From positions 1 through 64,000 of the forward strand of contig NZ_JAJVDH010000001.1 in assembly GCF_022758145.1 (NCBI RefSeq): a DNA stretch of 64,000 nucleotides, read 5' to 3'. The first letter of the stretch is position 1, and every line of letters begins with the position of its first letter. The stretch is from Pontibacter vulgaris (lineage in GTDB: Bacteria > Bacteroidota > Bacteroidia > Cytophagales > Hymenobacteraceae). The translations under genes were made by a program, and so were the position numbers. A model generated the notes under the pieces. It was given only the letters and a program-made list of their open reading frames with translations. It made no database searches and was not told the origin of the DNA. Positions 1-16,854 of this stretch are shown piece after piece.

Positions 1-31
1 CTTTATATATAATAGCGTAAGGTTCGCTTAT

Positions 32-1255
32 CTATAACACCTTGACCGCCTCCACGTAATCCTGCAGGTATTTATACTTTGTAGTTAGTTCACCGCTTCT
101 GGCTATAGTTGCTCTTTCCAGCATCCCTCCTTCGTCATTGTTAAATAGCTGCGGAAATACATAGTCTAGCAGGTTACGTCCGAAATCACGGGAGGCATTA
201 CGTGGCAATTCGCAAGGCAGGTTATCTACTGCCATAATAGTAATGTTGTCGCGGCGACTATAGGCTTGTTCCAGTTCTCCTGTTTGCGGGTTGTAATCGT
301 AGGCGGGCTCTATTATAGTAGAAGAGCGTTTGGTTGTAGGTATGGAGCCATCTACATCGCAGGTAATATCAGCAATTGTATCTATTTGAAAATCAGGTTG
401 GCGGGTATCTTCTTCTGTAAAAAGCTTTGGTGCACTAGGGTTCCAATAGGCACAGGCTAATAATAGATCTGTAACGCGGGTGAATTTGCGGAAAGTAGAC
501 TGGTATAGTTCAGGGTGCGTATAAAAATCAGGCGAGTCCCATACTTCTACATCCGGGCGGGTATTGTAATCTCCGGAATGCAACTGTGCATAAACAGGCT
601 CATTAAATTGCTTATATAAGTAATCAAAAACGCTTACTTTTCTGATACCCATTTTATCCAGCACCTCCATGGCCCCACCAGCTACCCTGCCACCACCTGT
701 AACGGCTATCTTTATAGGGGGAAGCTTTACCTTAAAATACTCTTCCTGCATGTCTTCCATTTCGTGGCACTGGTAAGCTGGCTTTAAATCGAACAGGTTC
801 CATTTTTTACCATAGGTAAGTATACCATTATAGGCACCAACTATACCGGCATACCTGCCGAAAGCCACTACACGCTGTCCTTTATTATCTGTCAGGGTTT
901 CGTAATCTATTAAAGTAATGTTCTTGTCAAGTATAGCCCGCAGGAGTTTAGCATTATGGGGCTGCTTTTTTATAGTATGTGAAAAGAAGAAGTATGTTTT
1001 GTTAGGTATAAGCTGATCAATCGGCACTTCTTTAACGCCCATCAGTACATCACACTGGCTCAGATCTTCCTGCATTGGTATATTAAGCTCCCGGTATTCG
1101 TCATCCTTAAAGCATCTTACCTCGCTGGGCTGTACTATTATCTCTGCACCCGGAAACTCCTGCATGGCTTCTATACACTTTTTTGGCGTTAGCGGCACAC
1201 GCTTATCTACCGGCACTTTTCCTTCCTTTATGATTCCGATCTTAACTTTACGCAT
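32..1255 (-). CDS. Saccharopine dehydrogenase / lysine-ketoglutarate reductase-like oxidoreductase (AlaDH/PNT fold)
   Basis: A 407-residue protein of the alanine dehydrogenase/PNT superfamily, closest in pattern to the lysine-2-oxoglutarate reductase half of eukaryotic AASS and to Lys1. Residues 5-130 form the N-terminal half, with the segment FFFSHTIKKQPHNAKLL, followed by VVAFGRYAGIVGAYNG. A dinucleotide-binding loop reads AVTGGGRVAGGAMEVL near residue 190. The family uses NAD(P)H with 2-oxo acids and amino acids, so a role in lysine or amino-acid catabolism in the cytoplasm is inferred. No saccharopine-cleaving partner lies beside it. It starts with ATG and is divergent from gcvP, sharing a 259 bp spacer. 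The family is clear but the exact substrate is not. Confidence 0.75.
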   Translation of the reverse strand: MRKVKIGIIKEGKVPVDKRVPLTPKKCIEAMQEFPGAEIIVQPSEVRCFKDDEYRELNIPMQEDLSQCDVLMGVKEVPIDQLIPNKTYFFFSHTIKKQPHNAKLLRAILDKNITLIDYETLTDNKGQRVVAFGRYAGIVGAYNGILTYGKKWNLFDLKPAYQCHEMEDMQEEYFKVKLPPIKIAVTGGGRVAGGAMEVLDKMGIRKVSVFDYLYKQFNEPVYAQLHSGDYNTRPDVEVWDSPDFYTHPELYQSTFRKFTRVTDLLLACAYWNPSAPKLFTEEDTRQPDFQIDTIADITCDVDGSIPTTKRSSTIIEPAYDYNPQTGELEQAYSRRDNITIMAVDNLPCELPRNASRDFGRNLLDYVFPQLFNNDEGGMLERATIARSGELTTKYKYLQDYVEAVKVL

Positions 1256-1428
1256 CTGTTTGTGTTCTTGAATTGTTATCGGTTAAAAAGTGTTAAGCAG
1301 TCTGCTAAGGGTTAAAGTATAAGCCCCCTGCGGCAGCGTTTAGATATAATCTACTTTTATATCTTAAGCATTGTAATAGAGCTCGAACTATTTAGCTTTT
1401 AAGCTTCAATATAATAAACATTTACTAT

Positions 1429-1436
1429 TACTTTTG
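1429..1436 (+). promoter_or_regulatory. Candidate -7 promoter element for gcvP
   Basis: TACTTTTG matches the Bacteroidota -7 consensus TAnnTTTG and lies 78 bp upstream of the gcvP start. No clear -33 TTTG was identified, so this is a candidate only. Confidence 0.4.
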
Positions 1437-1514
1437 TAAAAAATGAAAGGGTAGCAACACATCGCTCCTTTTAAGATTTTAAAATCCATAATTCCCAATC
1501 AATAGATCACTGCT

Positions 1515-4430
1515 ATGATATTTAAAACCAAACCTGCAGACGTGTTTAAGGAGCGCCACAACGGCCCTGACAAAGAACAGATGCAGGATATGCTTAAGAC
1601 CATCGGGGTAGACTCGCTGGATCAGCTGATTGAGGAGACCGTACCGGCCGCCATCCGACTTAAAAACCCATTAAACCTGCCAGCAGCTCTGACAGAGACT
1701 GAGTTCCTGAACCAGTTCTCGCAGATCGCGAAGCAGAACAAACTATATAAGTCGTATATCGGCTTAGGCTACAACGACACAATCATGCCTCCGGTTATAC
1801 TTCGTAATATTATGGAGAACCCGGGATGGTATACTGCCTATACTCCGTACCAGGCTGAGATTGCACAGGGCCGTTTGGAGGCTTTGATCAATTACCAGAC
1901 CATGGTAATGGACCTGACAGGTATGGAGATCGCCAATGCATCGTTGCTGGACGAAGGTACTGCAGCTGCCGAGGCGATGGGTATGTTCTTTGCAAACCGT
2001 AAAGGCGCCCGCAAAGCAGCCAACCGTTTCTTTGTATCGGAACTGGTGTTGCCACAAACTATAGATATCCTGCTTTCGCGTGCTATTCCGATCGGTATTG
2101 AACTGGTTATCGGTGATCACCGTGAAGTAGATTTCTCTGATGAAACATTATTTGGTGCGCTGGTGCAATACCCTGCTGCCGATGGTGCCATTTTTGACTA
2201 TACAGATTTCATAGCAAAAGCACACGAGCAGGAAATGTTCGTAGCTGTTGCTGCCGATATTCTTTCGCTTACTTTATTAACACCTCCGGGTGAGATGGGC
2301 GCTGATGCTGTAGTTGGAACTACCCAGCGTTTTGGTGTACCAATGGGCTTTGGTGGTCCGCATGCTGCTTACTTTGCTACAAAGGATTCTTTTAAGCGTG
2401 TTATCCCGGGCCGTATTATTGGTATTTCTGTAGATGCAGCTGGTAACAAGGCTTACCGCATGGCCCTGCAGACACGTGAGCAGCATATCCGCCGTGAGAA
2501 AGCTACTTCCAACATCTGTACTGCACAGGTATTATTAGCTGTTATTGCTGGTATGTATGCCGTTTATCATGGCCCACGTCGCCTGAAGTATATCGGCCTT
2601 AACACACACGCCTTAGCCCAGCAGTTAGAAGATGGCTTGAAAGCATTAGGCTTTGAGCAGCAGAACGAACAGTATTTCGATACGCTGAAAATTGCTGTAG
2701 AAAGCGCTGAGTTGAGAGATGCTATCCGTACTGAGGCTGAAGCGGCTGGTATCAACTTCCGTTATTTCGGTGAGAACAACATCGGTATCTCACTTCACCA
2801 GAACACAAACCTGGCAGATATTAAAGCTATAGTTGCTGTATTTGCGAAGGTGGCCGGTAAATCTGCGGACGTACTAACTATAGATGCGTTACCGGAAGAA
2901 ACTGAAGTAACCTGGGCTGATAGCCTGATCCGTAAGAGCGAGTACCTGACGCACGAAGTGTTTAACAAGCACCACTCTGAGCACGAGATCCTGCGCTACA
3001 TGAAGCACCTGGAGAACAAAGACATTTCTCTTGTTCACTCGATGATCTCCCTGGGTTCTTGTACTATGAAGCTGAATGCTACTGCTGAGATGATCCCGGT
3101 TACATGGCCAGAGATCGGGCAGTTGCACCCGTTTGCTCCAGCTGACCAGACAAAAGGTTATGCACAGATATTTAAAGACCTGGAAGCATGGCTTTGTGAG
3201 ATCACCCGTTTCGATGCAGTATCGCTGCAGCCTAACTCAGGTGCGCAGGGCGAGTACGCTGGCCTGATGGTTATCCGTGCTTACCATGAGTCACGCGGCG
3301 ATCATCACCGCACAGTTGCGCTTATTCCATCTTCTGCACACGGTACTAACCCAGCATCTGCGGTAATGGCCGGCATGAAAGTGGTGATTGTGAAGTGCGA
3401 TGAAAAAGGTAATATTGATGTTGCTGACCTGCGCGCGAAAGCTGAACAATATAAGAATGAGCTGTCTTGCTTAATGGTGACGTACCCATCTACACACGGT
3501 GTATATGAGGAGTCTATCATCGAGATCTGCCAGATCATACATGACAATGGTGGTCGTGTTTACATGGACGGTGCCAACATGAACGCTCAGGTTGGTTTAA
3601 CTTCGCCGGCGCACATCGGTGCCGATGTTTGCCACCTGAACCTGCACAAGACCTTCTGTATACCTCACGGTGGTGGTGGTCCTGGCATGGGTCCAATCGG
3701 TGTGGTAAAAGACCTGGCTCCGTTCCTGCCTGGTCACGCTGTGGTTGATTTGGGTCGTAAGGATGCGATCAACGCTATCTCGGCTGCGCCTTGGGGCTCT
3801 GCATCTATCCTGCCTATCTCTTATGCTTACATTGCCATGATGGGCGGCGAAGGTTTAACAGAGGCTACGAAGATTGCAATCCTGAATGCGAACTATATCA
3901 AGGCTCGCCTGGAGCAGCACTACCCTGTGCTTTACGTTGGCTCTAAAGGCCGTTGTGCACACGAGATGATCCTGGATTGCCGTGAGTTCAAGAAGTATGG
4001 CGTAGAGGTAGAAGATATCGCGAAGCGTTTAATGGACTATGGTTTCCATGCGCCGACTGTATCATTCCCGGTAGCTGGTACGCTGATGGTAGAGCCAACC
4101 GAGTCTGAAGCACAGGAAGAACTGGATAGATTCTGCGAAGTGATGATCTCGATACGAGAGGAGATTCGTGAGATTGAAGCCGGCAAAGCTGACCAGAAGA
4201 ATAACGTGCTGAAGAATGCGCCACATACGATGAAGGTTGTAATGGTAGAGAACTGGGAAAGACCTTACTCTCGTGAGAAAGCAGTATTCCCGATGGCTTA
4301 CCTGCGCGAAAACAAAGTATGGCCAACTGTTAGCCGCATCGACAGCGCTTACGGCGACCGTAACCTGGTTTGCTCTTGTGCTCCGATTGAAGCTTATAAT
4401 GAGCAGAGCCAGGAGATGACTGCAGTTTAA
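1515..4430 (+). CDS. gcvP: Glycine dehydrogenase (decarboxylating), P-protein
   Basis: The PLP-dependent P-protein of the glycine cleavage system decarboxylates glycine and transfers the aminomethyl group to lipoyl-H-protein. The 971-residue length matches the single-chain homodimeric form, with N-terminal (1-450) and C-terminal (480-940) aminotransferase-like halves. The PLP lysine lies in [20 protein letters not shown] near residue 710. [11 protein letters not shown] and the glycine-rich segment are typical. The T- and H-protein genes are not in the window, so the system is dispersed. The lipoate made by LipA at 14.6 kb is needed by H-protein. The coding sequence is nearly free of the TATACTT word common in its neighbours, which fits a highly expressed, codon-constrained gene. 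Confidence 0.98.
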
Positions 4431-4451
4431 AAACATCTTTTTAAATACAGA

Positions 4452-4484
4452 AAAGCCTGACGCAGCAATGTGTCAGGCTTTTTG
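4452..4484 (+). terminator. Rho-independent terminator of gcvP
   Basis: AAAGCCTGAC pairs with GTCAGGCTTT around a short loop and is followed by a T run, 20 bp after the gcvP stop. Confidence 0.85.
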
Positions 4485-4586
4485 CTTTTACTGCTTTTCA
4501 TACATCTTTTATACTTCAAAACTGTTTTTATCAACCTACCACCAATAGCGTATACTTTATACTTGCTGCCACTTAATGATAGAACC

Positions 4587-5165
4587 ATGAAAAGCTTCGA
4601 GATTAAAGGTATTAGCCTGCTTTTACTCCTGACAAGTATAGTAGGAATGATTAGCTGCCAGCCAACTATGAATGTGCAGAGCAGTTTCAACCGCTCAGCC
4701 GATTTTAAGCAGTACAAGACTTTTGCCTGGTATCCGGCAGAGGCAGCCAATAACCTCAGAACCGGCTACGATCCGGAAGTAGACCGACGTGTAAAAACAG
4801 CTGTGGAAGCAGCATTCGTAAAGAAAGGCATCTTACCTGATGCAGCTAACCCGGATATCTTGATCGCTTTTGATGTGGCACTAGAGGAAAAACAGGCAGA
4901 AAATGCAGATTTAGCACCTGGTTTTGGCTATGGGTATAGTTACTGGTATGGCTACCGGTTTAAGTATGATGTGAACGGCGTACCCAACTCCAAAAGTATA
5001 ACCCAATACCCGACGGGCACCTTAATCATCGATCTGGTAAACCCCAAAACAAATGAGCTGGTTTGGCGCGGTGTAGCAGAAGGAGAAATTGAAGCCGACC
5101 AGACAGACGAAAGAGATATCAGAGGTTCGGTAAGCAAAATACTCTCGCAGTACCCACCCAAATAA
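4587..5165 (+). CDS. DUF4136 domain lipoprotein (first copy)
   Basis: A predicted exported lipoprotein of 192 residues. I chose the ATG at 4587 because it gives a signal peptide ending in the lipobox-like GMISC; a longer frame from 4470 would overlap the gcvP terminator. The DUF4136 pattern is plain: an N-terminal segment with FNRSADFKQYKTFAWYP, a middle FGYGYSYWYGYR motif, and a C-terminal LIIDLVNPKTNELVWRG. The molecular role of DUF4136 is not known. The same arrangement recurs in the gene at 5738, so the two are tandem duplicates separated by a small secreted-protein gene. Confidence 0.85.
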   Translation: MKSFEIKGISLLLLLTSIVGMISCQPTMNVQSSFNRSADFKQYKTFAWYPAEAANNLRTGYDPEVDRRVKTAVEAAFVKKGILPDAANPDILIAFDVALEEKQAENADLAPGFGYGYSYWYGYRFKYDVNGVPNSKSITQYPTGTLIIDLVNPKTNELVWRGVAEGEIEADQTDERDIRGSVSKILSQYPPK

Positions 5166-5255
5166 ACCTCTATAACAACCCGGCATAACAAGCACTTTAA
5201 ACAGGTAAAATATACTTGTATTTAGAAAATATAGATTTCGCTATACATATTTTCT

Positions 5256-5263
5256 TACCTTTG
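5256..5263 (+). promoter_or_regulatory. Candidate -7 promoter element
   Basis: TACCTTTG matches the Bacteroidota TAnnTTTG -7 consensus 40 bp upstream of the 5304 start. A TTTC sits about 20 bp further upstream in the place of the -33 TTTG. Confidence 0.5.
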
Positions 5264-5303
5264 TACTGTTACAATTATTTATTGACTTTATTCTTTAATT
5301 GCC

Positions 5304-5669
5304 ATGAAGAAAGCAGCTGTATTACAACTTCTGGTAGCGTTTTGCCTGTTATGCTCTACTGCAAATGCGCAGGTAGTGCAGGCCGGTAATACCCCATTTA
5401 ATTACACTGCTGCTGCGAGAGTAGATGATACTAATAAAGAGAAAGCAACAAATGCTACAGCTGAAAGCAATGCTGCTATACCTCAGGTTACAAAACAACA
5501 CCTGAACCTGTTACCACAAGCTGACTTTATACCTGGCTCTAACAAAACCGCAGGCGAAATAGCTGAGACAAATAATAGCAATGGCAACACCAAATCAATG
5601 GCTGAAGAACTGGAAGCCTGGGTTGCCAACGAACTTATTCTGAAAAAGAGCCGCCGCAAGCTCCGTTAA
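5304..5669 (+). CDS. Small secreted protein of unknown function
   Basis: A 121-residue protein with a clear Sec signal peptide (residues 1-22, ending STANA before Q). The mature part is rich in Asn, Thr and Ala and is probably poorly ordered. The tail is basic (KKSRRKLR). I recognise no domain. It lies between two DUF4136 genes in the same orientation and has its own good promoter-like element upstream, so it may be transcribed independently. The function is unknown. Confidence 0.7.
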   Translation: MKKAAVLQLLVAFCLLCSTANAQVVQAGNTPFNYTAAARVDDTNKEKATNATAESNAAIPQVTKQHLNLLPQADFIPGSNKTAGEIAETNNSNGNTKSMAEELEAWVANELILKKSRRKLR

Positions 5670-5737
5670 TCCCTCTTCGTAATTCAGCTCTCGTTAACCT
5701 TGCCGCGTATAGTAGCTAATAAAAAGGCTACAACATT

Positions 5738-6346
5738 ATGGGAGCTTCTCTGAAAAGGCACGGCATTGGCGCCATTTATACTTTACTTTTCCTCCTTAAC
5801 CTTATTAGCTGCGCACCTGGTTCTGATGTGCAGGCATCTTTCGATCGGGCAACAGATTTCCAGCGGTTTCGCACCTTTGGCTGGTACCAAGCTACGCCTG
5901 CTGCCAATATTCAATCTGGCCAGGCAACTTATAGCACTGATATAGATAAACGGCTAAGACTAGCCATAGAAAGCGAACTGGTAAAGAAAGGCCTCGCGCC
6001 AGCCACATCAGACCCAGACCTGTTATTAGCTTACGACCTCAATATTGGCCAGCCTGCACAAGATATTCCGGCTGATGCATTTGCACCCGGCTTCGGCTAT
6101 GGGTATAGCTACTGGTATGGCTACCGCTATAATTATGATACAAGTCGCCTACCTGACTACCGTACGGTGGCTGCTTACCCTAAAGGCACTCTCATTATTG
6201 ATCTGATAGACCCGGATACAAACCAGCTGGTATGGCGCGGGTGGGTAACGGACGGAATAACAGAAACCAAAGCAGATAGCCGGGAAATAAACAGAGCAGT
6301 TGCAAGCATACTTTCAGGGTATCCGGTGGGTACGGCAGCCAGGTAA
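5738..6346 (+). CDS. DUF4136 domain lipoprotein (second copy)
   Basis: A 202-residue exported lipoprotein with signal peptide and lipobox NLISC at residues 22-26. It is closely parallel to the 4587 gene: FDRATDFQRFRTFGWYQ, FGYGYSYWYGYRYNYD and LIIDLIDPDTNQLVWRG occupy the same places. This indicates a tandem duplication. The short insert around residues 50-65 and the charged GQPAQDIPADA stretch differ from the first copy. The DUF4136 function is unknown. Confidence 0.85.
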   Translation: MGASLKRHGIGAIYTLLFLLNLISCAPGSDVQASFDRATDFQRFRTFGWYQATPAANIQSGQATYSTDIDKRLRLAIESELVKKGLAPATSDPDLLLAYDLNIGQPAQDIPADAFAPGFGYGYSYWYGYRYNYDTSRLPDYRTVAAYPKGTLIIDLIDPDTNQLVWRGWVTDGITETKADSREINRAVASILSGYPVGTAAR

Positions 6347-6358
6347 AAAGCATGAATG

Positions 6359-8644
6359 TTATAGTTTATACTTCAGAGTGAGGCCGCCGTAGTAATTCCG
6401 GTTAGGTGCCGGCTGAAAGTAGCGTCCGCCAAAAGCATTCAGGTCGTTGCCCAGGCTATACTTCTGATCTGTTATGTTATCTGCGCCGGCAAAAACTTCC
6501 AGCTCAAAATGCCTGGCTATACTTTTACGATAACCGGCACGGGCCGCAAGTATAAAGTAACTGTCAGCAAAAACGGTATTTTCATCGTTTAGTAGCGTTT
6601 TATCAACATAATTGGAGGTCAGGTTAAAGTATAAACCCGGTTTGGTATTAAGGTCGAGGCCAGCCGTAAGTGTATGCGGTGCCACGCCTGTAAGCTTATT
6701 GCCTGACAGATCTTCCTGATCTTTTTGATATTCTTTAAACCTGAAATGGCTGTAAGTATAGCTTGTCCATAGCTTGAGCAGTGTTAAAAGCTGGTCCTGA
6801 TTTTCCAGCAAAGTATAACCTAGTGCTGTTTCTATTCCTTTCTGTGCTGTAGAGCCTACATTCCGGAACACCGCCACGCCCAATGCATTCTGCCGGCTTA
6901 CAATCGTTTCGTTCAGGCGGAAGTAAAAGCCTACCACATCATAAGTAAACCTATTATTACTAGTGCTACCTCTTAGCCCAGCTTCATAATTTATCCCTTT
7001 TTCGGCTTCCAGGTCTTTATTCAGACTGCCATCCGATGGAAGCAATTCTTCCTCAGTGGGCGGCGAAAAACCGCTGCTGATGCTGACATGTGCCGACACC
7101 TGGTCAGTAAGCTTCTTCAGCAATGCTACCCGCGGCGATACTACGGCCTTAAAATCGCGGTTATACTTGTACTGCCCCGTAGCTGCCTGCTTTAATCTGG
7201 TAATGTTATACTTTGTATCATTCAGGCTGAGTGCCAGGGTAAGTATAAAATCAGCAGGAAGCTCAAGCTCGGCCTGGCCAAAAATAAAACCGGTTTTAGC
7301 AATTACTTCATCATCGGTGCGCAGGCTGTCGGGCGTGCCTGCATTGTTATTATAAGTGCGGGCTGCTTCAAACCCACGCTGAAATTCTGCACCAAAAGTA
7401 TAAACTGTAGGTATACTTCCTAAACTGGCAGAATGGGTAAAACTGGTACGGCCGCCATATTCCTGGTTTGCCACACGTTCATAATCTGTGTTAAAAGGAT
7501 TTTCGCGGAAGCGGTGCAAAGTATAAACTGAGGTAGTGTTGCGCCAGTTATCACTGAATTTGTATTCCTGCTTTAGCCCAACATTTATACTTTGCAGGTC
7601 GATGGATGCCTGTTGCCGCACGCTGCCAGACATACCGCCCCGCGCCTGACGCGGATTCTGATCGTATTGTTCTTTTGTAATTCCTCCCGGCAGCTCATAG
7701 TACAGATCGGTGTAAAGTATGTTTGCGGCTATGGTTTGCTTATCGGAAATATAAAACTCAGGCGATAAGAGAAGCACATGCCTGTCAAGAGCTGATTGCT
7801 CGCGGTAGCCATCATATTGCTGGCGGGCATACTGCACCAACACATTACTTTTACTGTTACCAGCTGTAGCAGTAGCGGTATACTTCCGGAAACCATACGA
7901 ACCTACTGTCGCTCCAACCTGCACCTGTTGTTTATCTGCCTCGGCACGTTTGGGTTCTAAAAGTATTGTGCCACCGGTACCTGCACCATAAATACTGGCA
8001 GTCGGCCCTTTCAGGATTTCCATACTTCCTATACTTGCCGCATCTATTAAATTAAGGGCAGTAGTGCCATTTGCCTCTGTTAGCGGCATGCCGTTAAAGT
8101 ATAGTTTTATGTTCCGGATGCCGTAAGGCGAGCGTAAGGTACTGCCACGAATTGAGAGGCGGTAACTGGCTGGTGCACGTTCGTCCATGCGTACGCCCGG
8201 CGCTGTATTCACGGCCCTTACCAAAGAGCTTTCATCAAACCTGCTGATCACATCGCTGCCAACTATACTTAGCGCGCCGGCTGTTTCCAGCAGCGGGCGG
8301 TTGCTCTGGTAACCTGTTACAACTACTTCCTGCAAAGCGGCAGCTGTTGGTTGCAGGTATACTTTAAGTTCAGGAGCTGAAACTGGTAGCGTTATAGTTT
8401 GCGTTTGGTAGCTCAGGTAGCTAAAGTATAAAACGGAGGCATCAGCTGTTATCAGCATAAAATCACCGCTTTTGCTGCTTATAGTTTGTTGCCCTGTGTT
8501 TGTGCTGATGGTTACGCCTTCGAGTGGTAATTTGCTTCTGGCATCAAGCACTTGCCCGGCTATACTTGTTTGTGCCCAGGAGTTAAAGGGCAAGGTACAA
8601 AGTATAAATACCGGAAGCAGATAGAGTAGTAAGGTTAATTTCAT
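6359..8644 (-). CDS. TonB-dependent outer-membrane receptor
   Basis: A 761-residue outer-membrane transporter. I chose the ATG at 8644 because it places a signal peptide (MKLTLLLYLLPVFILC, cleavage after NSWA) at the N-terminus; the upstream extension overlaps a terminator. Domains are a carboxypeptidase-regulatory-like beta-sandwich (about 25-105), a plug domain (about 115-225, with VVVTGYQ and ILKGPTASIYGAGTGG), then a 22-strand barrel ending in NYYGGLTLKYKL. The family imports siderophores, metal chelates or small ligands using TonB energy. FecA-like length suggests iron-siderophore uptake, but the substrate cannot be read from sequence and no SusD partner is present. The gene is very rich in the TATACTT/AAGTATA word. 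Confidence 0.92.
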   Translation of the reverse strand: MKLTLLLYLLPVFILCTLPFNSWAQTSIAGQVLDARSKLPLEGVTISTNTGQQTISSKSGDFMLITADASVLYFSYLSYQTQTITLPVSAPELKVYLQPTAAALQEVVVTGYQSNRPLLETAGALSIVGSDVISRFDESSLVRAVNTAPGVRMDERAPASYRLSIRGSTLRSPYGIRNIKLYFNGMPLTEANGTTALNLIDAASIGSMEILKGPTASIYGAGTGGTILLEPKRAEADKQQVQVGATVGSYGFRKYTATATAGNSKSNVLVQYARQQYDGYREQSALDRHVLLLSPEFYISDKQTIAANILYTDLYYELPGGITKEQYDQNPRQARGGMSGSVRQQASIDLQSINVGLKQEYKFSDNWRNTTSVYTLHRFRENPFNTDYERVANQEYGGRTSFTHSASLGSIPTVYTFGAEFQRGFEAARTYNNNAGTPDSLRTDDEVIAKTGFIFGQAELELPADFILTLALSLNDTKYNITRLKQAATGQYKYNRDFKAVVSPRVALLKKLTDQVSAHVSISSGFSPPTEEELLPSDGSLNKDLEAEKGINYEAGLRGSTSNNRFTYDVVGFYFRLNETIVSRQNALGVAVFRNVGSTAQKGIETALGYTLLENQDQLLTLLKLWTSYTYSHFRFKEYQKDQEDLSGNKLTGVAPHTLTAGLDLNTKPGLYFNLTSNYVDKTLLNDENTVFADSYFILAARAGYRKSIARHFELEVFAGADNITDQKYSLGNDLNAFGGRYFQPAPNRNYYGGLTLKYKL

Positions 8645-8734
8645 AGTTACCGAAGATAAGTAGCAAAACGTGCAGCTGCGGTTCTGGGTTAGTAATTTAG
8701 CCTTCTTAACTTTATTATAGCTGCCCCAGAAAGC

Positions 8735-8765
8735 AAAAAAGCTCCGACAGAAACTGCGGAGCCTT
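8735..8765 (-). terminator. Rho-independent terminator of the T9SS cassette
   Basis: On the minus strand GGCTCCG pairs with CGGAGC and runs into TTTTTT, 41 bp downstream of the OmpA-family gene stop. It separates that operon from the TonB receptor gene. Confidence 0.8.
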
Positions 8766-8805
8766 TCCAAACTATGAAAGCTAATGAGATATTTTTCAGT
8801 CAGTA

Positions 8806-10779
8806 TTACCTGATCTTGAATTCTGTTCTTCTATTGAGCTGGTGCTCTTCTTCGGAGCACTGCACACCTTCAGCGCAACCATTTACCAGTCTGGTTTTAC
8901 CGTAGCCTTTTGCTGTCAGCCTTTTTCTGCTGATTCCTTTTGATACCAGGTAATCAACTGCGGCTTTTGCGCGGCGCTCGGAGAGCAGTTGGTTATACTT
9001 CATACCTTCGCGGCTGTCGGTATGTGCGCTCATTTCTATTTTAATTTCAGGGTTATCCATCAGGGTTTGCACCAGCTTATCGAGCTCGGCAGCTGCATCC
9101 TCTCTGATGTCCCACTTATCAAGGTCGTAGTAGATATTCTCCAGCACGATAGCCTTGTTTACTTCATTTTTATCAAACAACAATGCCACCTGCACTGTGT
9201 CGCCGGCTGTTTCCGGTATTACGGCTTGCACCGATTGGTTCAGATAACCGTCTTTTGAGCCCTGGAAGGAGTAAGTGCTGCCTTTACGGCCATCCATAAA
9301 ATACTGTCCCCCTTCATTTGTCATAACCACAGTCGAATCTTTTAGGTTCTTTTGTGCCACAACTAATTTTACCTGCGGCAAAGCAACCTGAATATTTCGC
9401 TTCTGTTCGTTCTGTTTGCGCTCCAGCGTTTTAACAGCTAGCACTACAGGTCGCTGTAAATTACCGAAGCTATAGATATCATCAGTACCATCGGCAGCAT
9501 CGCGGTTCGATGAAAACAGCCCGCTATTGCCTGTGCTGTCGAACATAATACCATAATCGTTTTTAGGCGAGTTAAGCGGGTAACCCAGGTTACGAACTCC
9601 TGTCCAGGCTGTGTGCTTGCCTTCTGCCTGAAACATATCCAAGCCTCCCATGCCGGCATGCCCATCCGAAGCAAAGTATAACTTACCTTCTTTATCTACA
9701 TAAGGAAAGCTTTCGCGGCCTGCCGTGTTTACAGTAGCGCCTGCATTTACAGGTTCGCTCCAGCTGCCATCGGCCTGGCGTGTGGTATAATAAATATCTG
9801 TTTCGCCTTGCCCGCCTGGCATATCCGATACAAAGTACAGCACTTTACCATCAGCAGAGAGTGCAGGATGTCCTACGGAATATTCTTCAACTTTGTTATA
9901 TATAAATGGTTGAATATTGCTCCAGGTGCCGGATTGTTTTTTTGCAGTGAAGATCTCAAGTCGGTTTACATACTCTGTTACCGCCTCCTCTTTCACCCAG
10001 CTGGTAGGGTCAGGGTTTACGTTATTGCGTTTTTTAACCAGGTGCGTTCTGGTAAAGTATAGCATCTGGCCATCTTCGGCAGCAGATGCTGTGGCATTAT
10101 GATACTGTGAATTTATTACTTCCTGCAGCACCATCGGAGATTTCCAGTTACCCTGGTCGTCTTTCTGGGCTGTGAAAAGCTGCAGGTACGGGCGTCCCGT
10201 CCAGCCATAAATATCTTTCTTATTGTCGGAGGTCAGGCCACGGTCAGAAGTAAAAATGATGCCATTGCCGTAGCTCATGGGGCTAAACTCGGAGAAGTTA
10301 GCGGAGTTTATACTTTGCTCGTGCTTCACTTCAGCCACCGGTGATTGTTGCATCCATTTTGTGCTTTGGTCGCAGGCTGCTATCAGCTGCTGGGCACGTT
10401 CGGCCATTTCCGGTGCCTCTTCGCTCCAACGCATATACTGCTCCTTGGCCTCTTTATACTTGCCGTTGCTACGCAGCATTTCAGCGTATTGGTACAGGTT
10501 TACAGGGTTACGGTCTGGCATTGCTACTACTTTGGCATACCAGTTCTCAGCTTCCTGGGTGCGGCGTGTCAGGCGGTAAGCATCGGCAATGCGCTGGGCA
10601 GTTTGCAGATCGGGTTTGCGCTTTGTTACGGCAACCTGGTATTGCTCCAGCGCCAGGGCAAACTCATAGTTCTCGTAATGTTTATTTGCTTTTCGCAACT
10701 CAGATTGGGCCTGTGCAGCGGGAGCTAATCCCAGCATGGCAGCAATCAAAAGGCAAAAGGGTGTAGATTTATAGTTCAT
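8806..10779 (-). CDS. PorE-like OmpA family protein (TPR, PD40 beta-propeller, CRD, OmpA C-terminal)
   Basis: A 657-residue exported protein with a signal peptide ending AAQA. In order: TPR-like repeats (about 28-130), WD40/PD40 propeller repeats (about 155-440, with NGIIFTSDRG, LYFVSDMPGG and LYFASDGHAG), a carboxypeptidase-regulatory-like segment (about 465-535), and a peptidoglycan-binding OmpA_C domain (about 545-657, with HTDSREG, LLSERRAKA and AKGYGKTR). This is the architecture of the T9SS protein PorE, which anchors the secretion machinery to peptidoglycan. The PorP/SprF gene 19 bp upstream and the sorting-domain protein before it make a single operon. It is probably a paralogue dedicated to this one substrate rather than the core PorE. 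Confidence 0.88.
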   Translation of the reverse strand: MNYKSTPFCLLIAAMLGLAPAAQAQSELRKANKHYENYEFALALEQYQVAVTKRKPDLQTAQRIADAYRLTRRTQEAENWYAKVVAMPDRNPVNLYQYAEMLRSNGKYKEAKEQYMRWSEEAPEMAERAQQLIAACDQSTKWMQQSPVAEVKHEQSINSANFSEFSPMSYGNGIIFTSDRGLTSDNKKDIYGWTGRPYLQLFTAQKDDQGNWKSPMVLQEVINSQYHNATASAAEDGQMLYFTRTHLVKKRNNVNPDPTSWVKEEAVTEYVNRLEIFTAKKQSGTWSNIQPFIYNKVEEYSVGHPALSADGKVLYFVSDMPGGQGETDIYYTTRQADGSWSEPVNAGATVNTAGRESFPYVDKEGKLYFASDGHAGMGGLDMFQAEGKHTAWTGVRNLGYPLNSPKNDYGIMFDSTGNSGLFSSNRDAADGTDDIYSFGNLQRPVVLAVKTLERKQNEQKRNIQVALPQVKLVVAQKNLKDSTVVMTNEGGQYFMDGRKGSTYSFQGSKDGYLNQSVQAVIPETAGDTVQVALLFDKNEVNKAIVLENIYYDLDKWDIREDAAAELDKLVQTLMDNPEIKIEMSAHTDSREGMKYNQLLSERRAKAAVDYLVSKGISRKRLTAKGYGKTRLVNGCAEGVQCSEEEHQLNRRTEFKIR

Positions 10780-10798
10780 CGTATAAGGGCGCTATAGA

Positions 10799-11734
10799 TT
10801 AAAAGTATTGCGGAGTAAGCATTTTGGTATCTTTCTTCTTGAAGAAGTAATAGCCAACCGATATCTCGTGCGTGTTAAAGCCATTCAGCCCGTTCAGCAT
10901 TTTGTCATAGGCATAACCCAGGCGCAGCGATTTCTGAATCTGCAGCTCTGCGATCAAGGCTATGGCTGTGCGCTTTTGCATATCGGTGTTATTATCTGTT
11001 TTGCTGAAGAGATCCATACTGGTGCGGTAAGAGCTACCCAGCCACAACTTATCAGCCAACAATACAAATGCGTTCAAATCAACACTGGCAGGAGCTTTGA
11101 AATCTTCTTTTATAAGTACACTTGGCTTAAACTTCAGAAAGGTGCCCATATCAAACACATAACCGGTTGTAAAGTAATAATGGCGGGCGGGCTCCAGCAT
11201 CTGGGCATCTTTAAACTCCAGAAGGTCGGTGGCCGATAAACCTGCATACAGGCGGTCGGTGTGGAAGTATAAACCAACCTTCATGTCCGGTTTTATAGTT
11301 GATTCGCTGTTGCTAGGTATAGAAGGGTCATCTGAAATACCTAATTCAGAGCCATCAATAGCATTCTGCACTATACCTGCTGCCAAACCCAGGCTAAGTA
11401 CGCCGTTATGGCTAACCTGCAATTTTACAGCAGAGTTTACATAAGCTGATAGGGTAGACTGGGCGCCCAGCTTATCGCGGGTAATATCCATACCTAATCC
11501 TAAGCGGTTGTTTGCGGCAATGCCATCCAGGCTCAGCGATTGCGTTGTAGGAGCACCTTCTATACCTGACCACTGCGAACGGTGGAAGGCATTCAGGTTA
11601 AGTACATTTTTGCTGCCAGTATAAGCCGGGTTAATGGCCATACTGTTAAAAATGTATTGAGAGTACTGTGGGTTTTGCTGGGCATTGGCTGTAAAAGTGA
11701 GCAACAGGCCTAGCAGTGTGTAAAGTATTTTCAT
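10799..11734 (-). CDS. PorP/SprF family type IX secretion outer-membrane protein
   Basis: A 311-residue outer-membrane beta-barrel with a signal peptide (cleavage after TANA) and the hallmark QNPQYSQYIFNSMAINPAYTG just after it. The C-terminal half includes KLWLGSSYR and LRLGYAYDKMLNGLNGFNTH, typical of PorP/SprF. In Flavobacterium, SprF is needed for export of SprB, and SprF-like proteins lie next to the type B CTD substrate they serve. Here the gene sits directly downstream of the sorting-domain protein at 11767 (32 bp gap), so it is inferred to secrete or anchor that protein. Confidence 0.93.
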   Translation of the reverse strand: MKILYTLLGLLLTFTANAQQNPQYSQYIFNSMAINPAYTGSKNVLNLNAFHRSQWSGIEGAPTTQSLSLDGIAANNRLGLGMDITRDKLGAQSTLSAYVNSAVKLQVSHNGVLSLGLAAGIVQNAIDGSELGISDDPSIPSNSESTIKPDMKVGLYFHTDRLYAGLSATDLLEFKDAQMLEPARHYYFTTGYVFDMGTFLKFKPSVLIKEDFKAPASVDLNAFVLLADKLWLGSSYRTSMDLFSKTDNNTDMQKRTAIALIAELQIQKSLRLGYAYDKMLNGLNGFNTHEISVGYYFFKKKDTKMLTPQYF

Positions 11735-11766
11735 TTTTCCGGGTGTTTTTCTTTTTAAGGGTTTGC

Positions 11767-14232
11767 TTAGCGGAAAATGGTTATGTAACCGGTAAACTCT
11801 TTTTGTATGCCGTTGCAGAGCTGCACTTTAACTTTATAAAAGTAAGTACCCTGCTCCACCCCGTTTCCGGCCCAGTCGTTCTGATAGTTATTCCTTCTGT
11901 ATACTTCTGACCCCCAGCGGTTAAAGATCACTACTTCGTTTGTTGGGAATTTTGTCAGGTTATTTACTATCCAGGTGTCGTTTTTACCGTCGCCGTTCGG
12001 GCTGATGGCTTTCGGGAAGCTAAGCTCGCCATCTGCCAGGGCAATGTTTATACTTGCTGTAGCTGCAGCGCCTTCGCAGGTGTTGTTGCTGGCAGTTACG
12101 GTTACCTCGCCAAACGCATTTGGTGAAGTGGCTTTTACAGTAATAGCTGTTGTGCCCTGGCCCCCTGTGATGGTGAAGCCTGACGGCACTGCCCATGAAT
12201 AAGAAGTTGCACCAGCTACCGGAGCAATGCTATACTTCAGGCCATCGCATACATTGCTGTTGTCTGCTATCGGGCCGGGAGCTACCGGAGGTATTGTTAT
12301 AGTAGTAGCCAGGATGTTTGCTGCACTGGTACCACAGCTGTTGCCAGCCGTTACACTGATATCTCCGCCGCTGGTACCTGCTGTTACTGTAATGCTGGCT
12401 GTTCCAAGGCCGCTTTCAATTGTCCAGCCGGCAGGCACTACCCAGTTATAAGTTGCTGCGTTACCAGTAACACTGTATACCAGTTTCTCGGCATTGGCGC
12501 AAACTGAAGCCGGGCCGCTTATAGCAGAGAGCGTAGGAGGAGTAACTACTTTAACAGTCTTCTCAATATTATAGCAGTTACCACAGATATCTTTTACACA
12601 CACCCTTATAATGCCTGGCTCTGTGCCCGCATTTAACGTTACAGTATTTCTGTTTTGCGATACGATTCCCCAACCGCCAGACTTTCCGTCTGTCAGTAAG
12701 AAAGTATAAGTAGCGCCAGGTATGTCAGTTACAGTATAAACCAGGTTCTTTGTGCCGGCACAAACTGATGACTCGCCTTCTATGGCTAATACAGGAGCCG
12801 GACAAGTAATCTGAATTACCTCTGTATCTTTATTATCTGTTGGGTCTGTTTCCGGTGTAACTTCACTTTTAACTTCAGCAATGTTTGTGATCTTGCCACC
12901 ATTAGTGCCAAAACTTTTGATCTTAGCAACAATGGTTAATGTTGCCGTTCCATTCTTTGCCAGATCGCCTACAGTATAGATACTGGTAGCTGGGTTATAG
13001 CTTCCTTGTGTAGCTGTGCTGCTAACATATTCTAACTCTGCCGGCAGTGCATCAACTAAACTTACTACTTGCGAAGTATAAGGGCCGGCATTTTTCACAT
13101 CGATTGTATAGGTAACATTGCCACCTATTGTATAAGGCCCGCCGCTGGCTACTTTAGTTACCGAGAGGTTAGCAGCAATTACCGGTATTTCTATCGGGAA
13201 TTTGTCTTCATCATCTGTCGGGTTCGGATCCGGGTTGTCGCCCTCTATGGCAACTTTATTTTCAATCTGTCCAGACGATGCGATTCTGAAAACAATAGTA
13301 AGTGTTACTACTTCTCCGTTCTCCAACCTGCCAATATTCCATTTATTAGTGGCGGTATCATACGTACCTTTTGCTGTAGTAAAGCTTACAAACTGCAGGC
13401 CGGCCGGCAGTAATTCTGTTACCACCACCCCGGTAGCTGCATTCGGGCCGGCATTTTGTGCTGTTATAGTATAAGTTACTTCATCGCCAATTACATATTC
13501 TCCTGCTAGTGCAGTTTTCTTCACCTGCAGATCGGCAATTATCATGGTTGGCAGGTAAATATTGTTGGAGTGAAGATCAACCCCACCGTTTAAAGAAATA
13601 GCTCTTCCAATTAAACTTACACCTGCTCCTAAACTAATATTACCTTCAGAAATGATGGTACCCATGAAATTTGTAGAGCTTCCCAGGTCTACTTTACCTT
13701 TTACGATCCAGAAAATATTTTTGGCCTGTGCGCCATCCTCGGGCAATAAACCTGTGCCGGGTGCCGGAGGGGCTGGCAGAGGCGTGGTCAGATCGCCATC
13801 AATAACAAAAACGAAAGTAGCGTTTACATCCTTATTTCCATTCAGGACAGCAATGCCGTCGAGGTTTACATCGCCATCAAAGTGGTAGATGCCAGGAAAT
13901 GTAACATGCGATTTAAGGTCGGCGCTTGTAATAGATCTGCCGGGTGCATTACTGTAATACGTATGCAATGCCCTGGCATCAAGCAAAGCAGCAGTTGCAG
14001 CTGGCTCATTTATGTTTTTTGCACCCCGTACCATTAAGGTTCCGTTGTCCAGGAACATACCTGCCGGCGCAAGACCTACATCACCTGTAACACCTGTAAT
14101 ACCAGTGTTCTCGATGTAAGTTGAACTTAATACTGCAAAAGTTGAGGCAGTGTTAAGACCCGGATCTGTTTGTCCCAGACTTAGGGTGGTGCCAGCAATC
14201 AGGAAAAGGCAGATTAGTAAAAGTCTATGCAT
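11767..14232 (-). CDS. DUF3494 ice-binding-like surface protein with DUF11 repeats and T9SS type B sorting domain
   Basis: An 821-residue secreted protein. A signal peptide is followed by a DUF3494 domain (about 25-235), the fold of bacterial and fungal ice-binding proteins, with STFAVLSSTYIENTG and FMGTIISEGNISLGAGVSL. Next are two DUF11/CARDB-like repeats (about 237-350 and 352-465, each with NAGP), then PKD/Ig-like modules (about 475-735). The last 80 residues form the gliding-motility-associated C-terminal domain (SPNGDGKNDTWIVNN, VVIFNRWGSEVYRR, GTYFYKVK), which is the T9SS type B signal. The protein is expected on the cell surface or in the medium. DUF3494 can bind ice, but many copies serve adhesion, so antifreeze activity is only possible. 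Confidence 0.92.
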   Translation of the reverse strand: MHRLLLICLFLIAGTTLSLGQTDPGLNTASTFAVLSSTYIENTGITGVTGDVGLAPAGMFLDNGTLMVRGAKNINEPAATAALLDARALHTYYSNAPGRSITSADLKSHVTFPGIYHFDGDVNLDGIAVLNGNKDVNATFVFVIDGDLTTPLPAPPAPGTGLLPEDGAQAKNIFWIVKGKVDLGSSTNFMGTIISEGNISLGAGVSLIGRAISLNGGVDLHSNNIYLPTMIIADLQVKKTALAGEYVIGDEVTYTITAQNAGPNAATGVVVTELLPAGLQFVSFTTAKGTYDTATNKWNIGRLENGEVVTLTIVFRIASSGQIENKVAIEGDNPDPNPTDDEDKFPIEIPVIAANLSVTKVASGGPYTIGGNVTYTIDVKNAGPYTSQVVSLVDALPAELEYVSSTATQGSYNPATSIYTVGDLAKNGTATLTIVAKIKSFGTNGGKITNIAEVKSEVTPETDPTDNKDTEVIQITCPAPVLAIEGESSVCAGTKNLVYTVTDIPGATYTFLLTDGKSGGWGIVSQNRNTVTLNAGTEPGIIRVCVKDICGNCYNIEKTVKVVTPPTLSAISGPASVCANAEKLVYSVTGNAATYNWVVPAGWTIESGLGTASITVTAGTSGGDISVTAGNSCGTSAANILATTITIPPVAPGPIADNSNVCDGLKYSIAPVAGATSYSWAVPSGFTITGGQGTTAITVKATSPNAFGEVTVTASNNTCEGAAATASINIALADGELSFPKAISPNGDGKNDTWIVNNLTKFPTNEVVIFNRWGSEVYRRNNYQNDWAGNGVEQGTYFYKVKVQLCNGIQKEFTGYITIFR

Positions 14233-14557
14233 ATATCGAATTGTAAAGTAATTGGGTCTTTTTGTATATATATATGTAATTATACATATTTATATTGTAA
14301 ATGTACTGATAAAAATAAATAAGTTTGTGTTTATTAATGAAAAATTTAGATGTTTATATATTACAGGCTTCAAAATACACGGATCAGCTGAATGCAGCCT
14401 GCTAATGCTGTTTTCTGAGTCTAAAAGTTGCACTTGGAGTTCTTAAGTACTTGTTAGATACAGTGTTCCATATATACGTAGGCAGATATATTAAAGTTTA
14501 TAAAATAATATATATAGTGATAATTGAAAGGAGCCGTTGCGGTACTAACAGGCATAT
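14233..14557 (+). other. AT-rich spacer upstream of the T9SS cassette
   Basis: About 325 bp without a gene between the T9SS cassette start and the lipA terminator. It is strongly AT-rich with runs of alternating TA (14266-14300). It probably holds the minus-strand promoter of the cassette, but I see no unambiguous element. Confidence 0.5.
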
Positions 14558-14592
14558 AAAAAAGCCCCGGCTGCACAGCAACCGGGGCTTTT
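14558..14592 (-). terminator. Rho-independent terminator of lipA
   Basis: A GCCCCGGCTG / CAACCGGGGC stem is flanked by A5 on one side and T4 on the other, so it can act in both directions. It lies 22 bp downstream of the lipA stop. Confidence 0.85.
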
Positions 14593-14613
14593 ATACTATA
14601 AATGAGTTTTTTA

Positions 14614-15525
14614 CTAAACGTGCACGTGGCGTTCTGCGTGGTAAGAAGAGCGAACCAACGGCCCCGACTCAACATACTTAATGCCGCGTCTCAGGCCTTC
14701 TTCTCTGTAATGCTCAAACAGATCCGGGTGTATAAACTCGGCTACCTCTATGTGCAGTTTTGTTGGCTGCAGGTACTGGCCAAGTGTAAGTATATCGCAA
14801 CCATTCTCTGCCAGATCATCCATTGCCTGGTATACCTGGTCTCTGGTTTCGCCTAAGCCTAGCATTATACCTGTTTTAGTGCGCTTGCCATATTCTTTAG
14901 TACGGCGTGTTTGCTCTAAGCTGCGCTCATACTTGGCCTGCGGGCGCACACGGCGATAAAGTTCTTTTACCGTTTCCATGTTATGCGAAACCACTTCCTG
15001 GCCAGGAGATATCATGGTGATCAGGGCATCCCAGTTTGCTTTCACATCCGGGATAAGGGTTTCTATGGTAGTGGCCGGCGACAGCAGCTTTACCTGTTTT
15101 ACCGTTTCGTGCCAGATGGCAGCGCCACAGTCTTTCAGTTCGTCGCGGTTTACAGAGGTAATTACAGCATGCTTCACACCCATCAGCTGAATGGCTTCAG
15201 CTACACGGCGTGGCTCATCCTCATCATACTCATTCGGGCGGCCTGTGGCTACAGCGCAAAAAGAGCAGCTGCGGGTGCACACATTACCTAAAATCATAAA
15301 GGTAGCCGTACCTGCGCCCCAGCACTCACCCATATTCGGGCAGTTGCCGCTCTCGCAGATGGTATGCAGTTTATATTCAGATACTATGTTTCTTACTTTA
15401 GTGTATTCCTGGCCCACAGGCAACTTTACACGTAACCAGTTAGGCTTGCGTATTTTGCCATTTTCACTCAGCTCGGCGGGAGTAGTGTTAGGCTGTATAA
15501 CCGGAAGTGATATTAATTCATCCAT
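14614..15525 (-). CDS. lipA: Lipoyl synthase
   Basis: A radical-SAM enzyme that inserts two sulfurs into octanoyl groups on lipoyl domains. The 303-residue length fits the family. The auxiliary cluster motif [12 protein letters not shown] is at about 56-67, and the SAM-cluster motif CTRSCSFC is at about 82-89, followed by AVATGRP. MLGLGET in the core and the C-terminal [10 protein letters not shown] are also typical; the serine of RSSY ligates the auxiliary cluster. Its products serve the glycine cleavage system and the 2-oxoacid dehydrogenase at 17.9 kb. It appears monocistronic with its own terminator; lipB is not nearby. Confidence 0.97.
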
Positions 15526-15641
15526 GCTGCAAAGATAGGAAGTTATGCATTAAGACACTGGCAATTGGCCAAGTTTTGTGTTGCCTCTAATACAGAAACT
15601 GCCATCTTAACAAACAACTTAAAAGAAATGTTCGGGGGGTG

Positions 15642-16379
15642 TTATTTTCTGCGACCGTAGTACAGGTTGAGGTACACAGAGGCGAAAGTGCTGTAGTTCT
15701 CGGCCTGCGGAATCATGTTAAGCTTTTTAGTATATTTTTCTACCATAAAGCCAACTTCCATACCTGTTATACTTTCGTTATAGCGGCCATATTCGAAACT
15801 AAGGCCAGCTTTGGCATGCAAGCCAAAGTTTACTTTTGCTTCACCTAAACCAGTGAAAACATTTGCGCTGCCTTCTATAAGTTCGATATCGCGGTGCTGT
15901 ATGGGGTCATACTGCTCGGTACGCACATCAGAATCGGAAGTACGGCTGCCATAGTTGTAACGAATATAGTAAGGTACCAGGAAACCCAGCGACGGCCCTA
16001 CTGCGCCTACAGCATTTACCTGCACGCCCGATTCGGCTGCTTTTTTAAACAGTACATACTCGGCACCATACTGCGGACGCACAACAAAAAGATAATTCTG
16101 CTTACCTGCTATAAAAAAATCGCCGGTGTTGGCGCTGTACAAGCGGTTCTCTTTCGGATGCTTTACCTCCACAATTTCCAATCCGCCGAACTGGTACAAG
16201 CCATCTCTTACTAAATATGCCGAACGCCCAAACACACCGCCAACCAGGCCGCCATTCGAGTTAAAGTTTATACCATAGCTCAGCTCATTCCGAAAAGTTT
16301 CTTCTTCAGAGGATTGTGCTGCTGCCGGTAGTGTTACACACAGCGCAACGGCCAGGACTAATGCGAGGTATCTTAGCAC
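15642..16379 (-). CDS. Predicted outer-membrane beta-barrel protein, function unknown
   Basis: A 245-residue exported protein with GTG as first codon and a signal peptide ending PAAAQ. The mature part has alternating hydrophobic and glycine/aromatic segments (NELSYGINFNSNGGLVGGVF, KVNFGLHAKAGLSFEYGRY) and ends VYLNLYYGRRK, like a small barrel of 8-10 strands. I recognise no named family beyond the general Bacteroidota outer-membrane type. It is convergent with nothing and 116 bp from lipA, probably its own unit. Confidence 0.7.
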   Translation of the reverse strand: MLRYLALVLAVALCVTLPAAAQSSEEETFRNELSYGINFNSNGGLVGGVFGRSAYLVRDGLYQFGGLEIVEVKHPKENRLYSANTGDFFIAGKQNYLFVVRPQYGAEYVLFKKAAESGVQVNAVGAVGPSLGFLVPYYIRYNYGSRTSDSDVRTEQYDPIQHRDIELIEGSANVFTGLGEAKVNFGLHAKAGLSFEYGRYNESITGMEVGFMVEKYTKKLNMIPQAENYSTFASVYLNLYYGRRK

Positions 16380-16449
16380 CTTTTTATAATTTATAGTTTG
16401 CTTAAATCTATCTAAATTTACGCTCTTAACAAAACAATCGTTAGCACTT

Positions 16450-16854
16450 ATGGCAACAATTAACAGTACCTATAAAGGCGACTTACGCACTCAGGCTCAG
16501 CATATTGCATCAGGCAACACTGTTATTACAGACGCTCCTGTAGATAACAACGGTCGTGGCGAGGCTTTCTCTCCATCTGACCTGGTTTGTGCCGCTCTCG
16601 GCAGCTGCATGATGACAATTATGGGCATCGTGGCAAACCGCAGCGAAATAAACATTGAAGGCATGGAAATCGAAACCACCAAAATAATGGCTTCAGAACC
16701 ACGCCGTATTGCAGAAATAGTGCTAACCTTTAAAATGCCGGCACGCTCTTACACTGATAAAGAGAAAGCGATGCTGGAAAACGCGGCTCGCACATGCCCG
16801 GTTGCCCTAAGCCTGCACCCGGAGATTAAACAATCTGTTACTTTCTTATACTAA
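16450..16854 (+). CDS. OsmC family peroxiredoxin-like protein
   Basis: A 134-residue OsmC/Ohr-fold protein of the YhfA-like branch. The two conserved cysteines are present: one in SDLVCAALGSCMM (about 44-56) and the second in RTCPVALSLHPE (about 115). The family reduces organic hydroperoxides through a Cys pair. Two nearby cysteines in the first motif make the exact peroxidatic residue uncertain. The gene faces ytxJ, another thiol-redox gene, across a shared hairpin. Confidence 0.92.
   Translation: MATINSTYKGDLRTQAQHIASGNTVITDAPVDNNGRGEAFSPSDLVCAALGSCMMTIMGIVANRSEINIEGMEIETTKIMASEPRRIAEIVLTFKMPARSYTDKEKAMLENAARTCPVALSLHPEIKQSVTFLY

Follow-up and report, generated by a model that had tools for sequence, protein, structure and literature searches.

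A hyper-iterated, conserved genome word with one-letter dialects in Pontibacter

The region described here (the window) is a stretch of 64,000 nucleotides from Pontibacter vulgaris, whose genome of 4.19 Mb is referred to as G000. Throughout it, in genes and spacers, the heptamer AAGTATA and its complement TATACTT (the word) recur. The features of the window that are needed below are as follows.

1..64000, both strands: 170 copies of the word (84 AAGTATA and 86 TATACTT on the plus strand), spread over genes and spacers at a mean of one copy per 378 bp
1515..4430, plus strand: gcvP (glycine dehydrogenase; name confirmed by Pfam), 2 copies only
6359..8644, minus strand: TonB-dependent receptor gene (Pfam PF00593, PF07715), 22 copies (9.6 per kb)
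16853..16880, plus strand: two opposite copies in a spacer, one each in two adjacent predicted hairpins (-21.3 kcal/mol, z -3.6)
24689..24708, plus strand: direct tandem pair, TATACTTGCC twice, seen in the sequence
34816..34825, no strand: two inverted copies that overlap as AAGTATACTT, forming part of a predicted hairpin loop (-19.5 kcal/mol, z -5.2)
36389..37402, plus strand: AT-rich ORF (GC 0.36) with no Pfam family match, 0 copies
46702..47568, plus strand: AT-rich ORF (GC 0.25) with glycosyltransferase-like Pfam matches, all below the curated cut-off, 0 copies
52527..52571, no strand: four-copy cluster with AAGTATACTT among them, from the word positions
56443..58023, minus strand: atpA (name confirmed by Pfam), 0 copies

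An earlier note on this DNA had proposed that the word is over-represented in both orientations, and the excess proved greater than that note could see. The 170 copies of the window compare with a mean of 11.5 and a maximum of 20 in 200 dinucleotide shuffles, and with 11.6 and 39.6 copies expected under first- and third-order Markov models, respectively; the excess is therefore not predicted by the third-order model, which the note had named as a test. A fifth-order model comes near the observed number (146.8), because the signal is already present in the six-mers inside the word. In the TonB gene, where about 20 copies had been estimated, 22 were counted (10 AAGTATA and 12 TATACTT), vs a mean of 0.50 and a maximum of 4 in 1,000 shuffles. 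This gene is the densest among 28 tabulated ORFs, and all six frame/strand classes are occupied in it. As the note had said, gcvP has few copies, and atpA and both AT-rich ORFs have none; the AT-rich ORFs are probably recent arrivals. The copies at 16853-16880 had been considered to build terminator stems: both do lie in predicted hairpins, but the hairpins are two neighbouring ones and the copies are not paired together. The copy reported in a loop near 34803-34838 was recovered as the overlapping pair at 34816-34825.

With regard to an extended consensus, which the earlier note had raised, the letter after AAGTATA in the window is mostly A (89 of 170) or G (45), followed by C (26) and least often T (10). 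Three one-letter variants are also enriched in the window, AACTATA (72), AAGTATG (54) and AGGTATA (37), with about 8-12 expected for each, and the remaining ones reach at most about 2.5 times the first-order expectation. Over four data sets the density is 5.3-7.7 per kb outside ORFs vs 1.7-2.3 inside, the spacers of two of the genomes (G013 and G120) including dispersed repeats and short genes possibly being missed. In the whole of G000 there are 10,614 copies (5,200 and 5,414 in the two orientations), that is, one per 395 bp or 2,533 per Mb. The reversed word, counted alongside as the control in genome counts, occurs 499 times (246 and 253), giving an AAGTATA-to-reversed ratio of 21.

Codon bias alone, which the earlier note had considered a possible explanation, fails to account for these numbers and is rejected as the cause. 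In 204 ORFs from the window and 14 other stretches of the same genome, 447 copies were found vs 75.8 after synonymous-codon shuffling, which was done gene by gene and retains codons introduced by the word itself (contig C9, with 5.9 kb and 0 copies, was left out of this set and included in the pooled counts; contigs C15-C19, read as N, were left out). The word is over-represented in these ORFs in all frames and on both strands, 2.4- to 11.6-fold depending on the combination, and the dipeptides inspected shift little, the largest change being 1.38-fold for Tyr-Thr. The 45.6 kb that lie outside the 204 ORFs contain 172 copies vs 6 of the reversed word.

The occurrence of the word was further examined in other genomes. 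Outside the genus only AAGTATA was counted, together with a k-mer scan of 80 loci (each of at most 13 kb, Pontibacter not being among the locus titles), for which the cyanobacterial-type HIP1 word CGATCGC served as a positive control (26 vs 1.3 expected in locus L200). As judged by eye, the AAGTATA-to-reversed ratio does not exceed about 1.7 in 394 other genomes of the phylum and about 2.5 in 76 genomes from five other genera of the family, a comparison with related genera that the earlier note had proposed, vs 21 in G000. Among the genomes counted, the word is restricted to one genus, Pontibacter (Hymenobacteraceae, Bacteroidota); the host-specific signature suspected by the note is supported. 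In the open-access literature, the matches listed include no account of a word of this kind from Pontibacter or any other Bacteroidota.

Within Pontibacter three spellings were observed, AAGTATA, AACTATA (4 species) and AGGTATA (12 species), the largest number in any one genome being 13,168. Whole-genome counts of AAGTATA range from 4,114 to 11,818 in 22 genomes (G137, also an AAG species, was left out), those of AACTATA from 12,524 to 13,168 in G120, G109, G135 and G018, and those of AGGTATA from 5,748 to 9,303 in 12 genomes, with 3,132 in G133, whose spelling is AGG/GGG. Three genomes carry two dialects, AACTATA and AAGTATA being present in 11,674 and 5,110 copies in G055, 8,118 and 7,552 in G070, and 6,094 and 9,116 in G089; AACTATA occurs 3,531 times in G000. 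Using gcvP as the anchor for a comparison of 50 genomes, we found that the dialect labels require 9 changes on the gcvP protein tree (shuffled mean 27.2, with 0 of 200 shuffles as low). The dialects are congruent with this tree, a single group of 12 genomes (support 73) having AGG and another of 4 (support 85) having AAC, the tree being that of a single protein with many weak forks and a midpoint root, and the labels being based on 20 kb per genome (4.6 kb in G007). AAG is common across this tree, and was probably the ancestral spelling over most of it. It should be noted that G020 was assigned to AAG by hand (14 copies per 20 kb at a threshold of 17; 4,114 in the whole genome).

No dominant word was found in 10 of the 50 species. 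Near the midpoint root these are G139, G138, G065, G118, G002 and G007, the last called word-less on its 4.6 kb alone; further in are G040, G131, G050 and G024. Some of these genomes are above chance, with AAG ratios of 4.0 in G007 (2,905 vs 723), 2.5 in G002 and G024, and 2.1 in G050. Other 7-mers are repeated in one stretch of word-less G040 (L090), with 56 copies of ATATATA and 47 of CAACGGC. The word is also found on the 204-kb plasmid NZ_CP021236 of P. actiniarum, in which positions 1-100000 (L241 and L242) contain 40 AAGTATA vs 9.0 expected, about half the density of its genome overall. When plasmids were searched with the TonB protein or the window DNA, no Pontibacter record was found among the matches listed.

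To understand whether copies are kept, two close pairs of species were compared, G013/G137 (AAG) and G109/G120 (AAC), over 191,741 and 149,676 aligned columns, respectively. In the AAG pair, 370 of 447 G013 sites (0.828) are identical in G137, vs 0.589 of frame-matched shifted windows (offsets in multiples of three) and 0.697 of permuted words; in the AAC pair, 363 of 440 G109 sites (0.825) are identical in G120, vs 0.475 of shifted windows and 0.628 of permuted words. Column profiles revealed that the protection spans the seven letters, within ORFs and beyond, with imperfect edges: in G109 ORFs the next column also reaches 0.96, and in G013 spacers the last letter is at 0.90 and the best flank is at least as good. 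This slower divergence is clearest for the dialect of the pair itself. The AAC pair keeps AAGTATA in 56 of 95 cases, the AAG pair keeps AACTATA in 22 of 31 and AGGTATA in 27 of 45, and five AGG pairs keep AGGTATA in 141 of 207 and AAGTATA in 2 of 8. The exceptions are AAGTATG, kept in 116 of 144 cases by the AAG pair, and AGGTATA, kept in 40 of 54 by the AAC pair; high values were also seen for certain words with small counts (AAATATA, 21 of 24; ATATCAA, 20 of 23). Distance to the next copy, a check for redundancy, had no clear effect on conservation.

Moreover, some sites are respelled in place after a dialect switch. Where AAG sites were aligned to AAC species, 81 of 655 genome-pair cases read AACTATA, vs 0 of 659 permuted words with the same substitution; for AAG to AGG, the numbers are 137 of 673 vs 112 of 2,788. 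Genome-pair counts of respelling and retention repeat the same sites across genomes; distinct sites were also counted. From AAG to AAC these are 8 of 40 (G000), 9 of 36 (G004), 7 of 32 (G104) and 5 of 26 (G013), with 0 of 38, 0 of 35, 0 of 34 and 0 of 20 controls, respectively; from AAG to AGG they are 10 of 42 (G000), 8 of 27 (G013), 5 of 23 (G014) and 6 of 28 (G092), with 14 of 160, 6 of 87, 4 of 76 and 8 of 120 controls. All of these come from the gcvP region (at most 20 kb per genome), and the majority of sites are not respelled.

The earlier note had supposed that the word drifts in relaxed sequence, and had named a small mutational bias among the candidates. Mere drift is not supported by the two close pairs, in which sites diverge more slowly than their frame-matched neighbours. 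Mutational bias is unlikely as a full explanation: if it did no more than create copies, the rate of loss would stay unchanged, whereas selection, drive or word-directed repair would slow it. Thus, a genus-specific, hyper-iterated, conserved and dialect-bearing word is shown here, and the dialect switches within the genus, the in-place respelling, the one-genus restriction and the losses go beyond that note. Its suggestion of an uptake-like word or a binding site is supported. The word is maintained, probably by a vertically inherited, sequence-specific DNA-binding factor; for such a predicted reader it would be the mark to recognise throughout the Pontibacter genome, with the approximate form A-(A/G)-(G/C)-T-A-T-A-(A/G).

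Candidate readers were sought by profile searches for six families (PF00437, PF03772, PF12836, PF01555, PF02384 and PF07669), none of which separates bearers from non-bearers. PF00437, the motor of type IV pili and type II secretion, gave only partial matches of 19-25 bits in all 24 genomes, one of them just above the cut-off; since these are partial and weak, there is no recognisable pilus motor. ComEC (PF03772) is present in 24 of 24 genomes, and a multi-HHH frame of 313-346 aa (HHH_3, PF12836), which we take to be ComEA-like, is intact in 23 of 24. As word-less genomes have both, comEC and the multi-HHH gene also fail to separate the two groups. The exception for both genes is G022, in which comEC has an internal stop and the multi-HHH region is reduced to frames of 75-120 aa with a stop.

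G022:C1:2078034-2078647 and G022:C1:2771217-2771876: broken multi-HHH gene and comEC of the complete genome G022, intact in the other 23 of 24 genomes

On the basis of these two genes, G022 has likely lost DNA uptake. Its AAG-to-control ratio (8.8) is the lowest of the 22 AAG-rich genomes, followed by G020 (11.7), G055 (12.3) and G019 (12.6). In the gcvP region the retention by G022 of sites known from other AAG species is 1.28 times that of the control, 10 of 13 AAG targets lying between 1.75 and 2.46, and its share of one-off sites (0.302) is the highest of the 13. This suggests that the word erodes once uptake is lost. Retention is about as low, in the 20-kb stretch, in G020 (0.96), in which both genes look intact, and in G012 (1.30), and the one-off share is just as high in word-less G131 (0.385) and G139 (0.302); word-less G040 has a retention ratio of 2.54 on 86 sites. 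Among methyltransferases, PF01555 was found in 14 of 24 genomes, being missing in word-bearing G109, G022, G081, G133 and G014; PF07669 in 23 of 26, being missing in word-bearing G022 and G133; and PF02384 in 26 of 26, word-less ones included.

The word looks like the self-recognition mark of bacteria that select DNA for uptake, and a drive similar to that of DNA uptake sequences is the mechanism that we tentatively prefer, at somewhat less than an even chance. The ancestor would have been naturally transformable, with a DNA receptor that favoured word-bearing DNA; such fragments would be taken up and recombined more often, and word-bearing alleles would keep winning, so that copies would build up wherever coding permits. 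Words would erode upon loss of uptake. The reader would be inherited vertically, and its specificity would move one base at a time; old sites would therefore become one-off, and then be respelled or replaced. This reading is favoured by the density, the presence in both orientations, the denser spacers and the asymmetry of the word, by one-letter dialects that follow the gcvP tree and coexist in G055, G070 and G089, by site conservation in two pairs and in-place respelling, and by the presence of comEC (24 of 24) and the ComEA-like frame (23 of 24), both broken in G022, the weakest AAG genome. Against it, no receptor and no recognisable pilus motor were found in 24 genomes, comEC and the HHH gene also occur in word-less genomes, G020 and G012 look as eroded as G022 in the 20-kb stretch, with one-off shares as high in G131 and G139, and protection is undiminished at sites with close neighbours, which a drive acting on fragments might reduce. 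That no demonstration of natural transformation in Pontibacter was found in the open-access literature also counts against it. It is possible, though rather doubtful, that Pontibacter or its ancestor had pilus-independent, sequence-specific uptake with a self word of 7-8 letters in up to 13,000 copies, at least three dialect changes within the genus, and switching visible in the two-dialect genomes.

Similar words are known from the DNA uptake sequences (DUS) of Neisseriaceae and the uptake signal sequences (USS) of Pasteurellaceae. According to the part of PMC3630211 consulted, these are also short and asymmetric and occur in thousands of copies in both orientations; DUS dialects differ by one or a few bases and follow the species tree, some genomes carry two, and a core is constant (CTG in DUS, TATA in the Pontibacter word). 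The same part of that source gives up to 4,265 DUS in one genome, compared with 13,168 copies in Pontibacter. A Bacteroidota member, Riemerella columbina, likewise prefers its own genomic DNA, which outcompetes foreign DNA in transformation; in contrast to Pontibacter, from a different family, its commonest 7- to 10-mers in the portion seen of PMC7965970 are A/T-rich runs at about 2-8 times the expectation from base composition, with no clear uptake word there. The Pontibacter word is shorter (7-8 letters vs 9-12 for DUS and USS). DUS are read by the minor pilin ComP and a USS receptor has reportedly been predicted in one study, whereas the Pontibacter word belongs to Bacteroidota that lack a recognisable type IV pilus motor. 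We do not claim membership of the DUS/USS class, because the pilus motor was looked for and not found.

Several alternatives should be considered. A possible but doubtful one is an intracellular binding site, in which a chromosome-structuring or nucleoid-associated protein, or a replication or repair factor, would bind about every 400 bp and selection would retain the sites. Site conservation and in-place respelling fit any reader, the lack of a recognised pilus motor suits this one, and so does the lack of an effect of neighbouring copies. However, an essential organiser is difficult to reconcile with the losses in G040, G131, G050 and G024, or with thousands of sites having been respelled on at least three occasions within one genus; no candidate protein was found, and the stretch of the mobilizable plasmid also has an intermediate excess (40 in 100 kb vs 9.0 expected).

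Word-directed repair or modification is unlikely. Here a methyltransferase or mismatch-repair nuclease would restore and create the word with no benefit per site, as has been proposed for HIP1, the nearest hyper-iterated word. As given in the part of PMC4390886 seen, HIP1 reaches 300-2,700 copies per Mb, close to the 2,533 per Mb of AAGTATA in G000, and is lost or swapped for another word in some species; Elhai ties HIP words to methyltransferases that recognise parts of them, a link called "a mystery" in the same source. Restoration would also slow loss, and would respell sites upon a change of specificity. But HIP words are palindromic (PMC4390886, same part), whereas the Pontibacter word is asymmetric, its overlapping palindrome AAGTATACTT being rare (3 pairs in the window) and AACTATAGTT commoner in AAC species (33 pairs in G109 and 42 in G120, in 220 kb). 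Unlike the HIP case, none of PF01555 (14 of 24), PF07669 (23 of 26) and PF02384 (26 of 26) tracks the word, and swapped recognition domains would be expected to alter more than one base.

A Chi-like recombination hotspot with an AddAB/RecBCD-type reader appears very improbable. The Pontibacter word shares with Chi words a short and asymmetric form, a high density and lineage specificity; known Chi words are G-rich, which it is not. It also lacks orientation bias over distance: with repeats masked, the chance that two copies point in the same direction is 0.49-0.53 at 1-100 kb in G000, G013, G109 and G120, as the earlier note expected in arguing from equal orientations against polarity, and a polar Chi- or KOPS-type word is accordingly disfavoured. 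Two bins of G109 nominally depart from one half (0.530 at 1-3 kb, p 7e-4; 0.506 at 30-100 kb, p 0.003), and AGG stretches give 0.50-0.55. Before masking there was an excess of same-direction pairs and of 7-, 11- and 20-bp spacings in spacers, as well as an imbalance of orientation per stretch (AAG, p 4e-11); these trace back to intergenic repeats scattered through G013 and G120, and shrank on masking, and permuted control words of G013 still show more short-range co-orientation (0.740 at 4-30 bp). In the joined stretches G013:C1 at about 23-223 kb and G120:C3 at 1.30-1.52 Mb, the repeats form families with several copies of the local word each, with hairpin-like elements of the types TGTCATCTCGA...TCGAGATGACA, GCTGGCGCGAG... 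and CCCACCCC...; 48 regions in G013 and 23 in G120 (protein-repeat regions among them) have three or more further copies. That the excess is a mere artefact, caused by composition, by codon usage or by dispersed repeats, is scarcely credible: although the word sits within the repeats of G013 and G120, this reading is refuted by the third-order Markov (39.6 vs 170), synonymous-shuffle (75.8 vs 447) and site-conservation results, no region of the G000 window has three or more further copies, and 433 of 558 G013 sites remain after masking.

The Pontibacter word bears on a general question, that of the function and origin of hyper-iterated genome words. As 40 of 50 species carry it in three or more dialects, alongside two-dialect genomes and word-less species, its reader can be sought across sister species. 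On the uptake reading, which we tentatively prefer, the biology of DUS and USS would reach into the Bacteroidota and work there through another uptake machine, and the way in which self-recognition of DNA shifts as species form would come into view; a role in chromosome binding would instead point to an organiser that has 10,000 sites. Under either reading, each dialect provides a ready-made test.

Other words with unusual frequencies were also observed. In the window, words containing CTAG, ATATG and runs of A are depleted, and ACCTG/CAGGA words are moderately enriched. In the k-mer scan, a 12.8-kb locus of the metagenome-assembled bacterium isolate SJ803 (L220) contained 33 copies of CTTGTAA/TTACAAG vs 4.7 expected.
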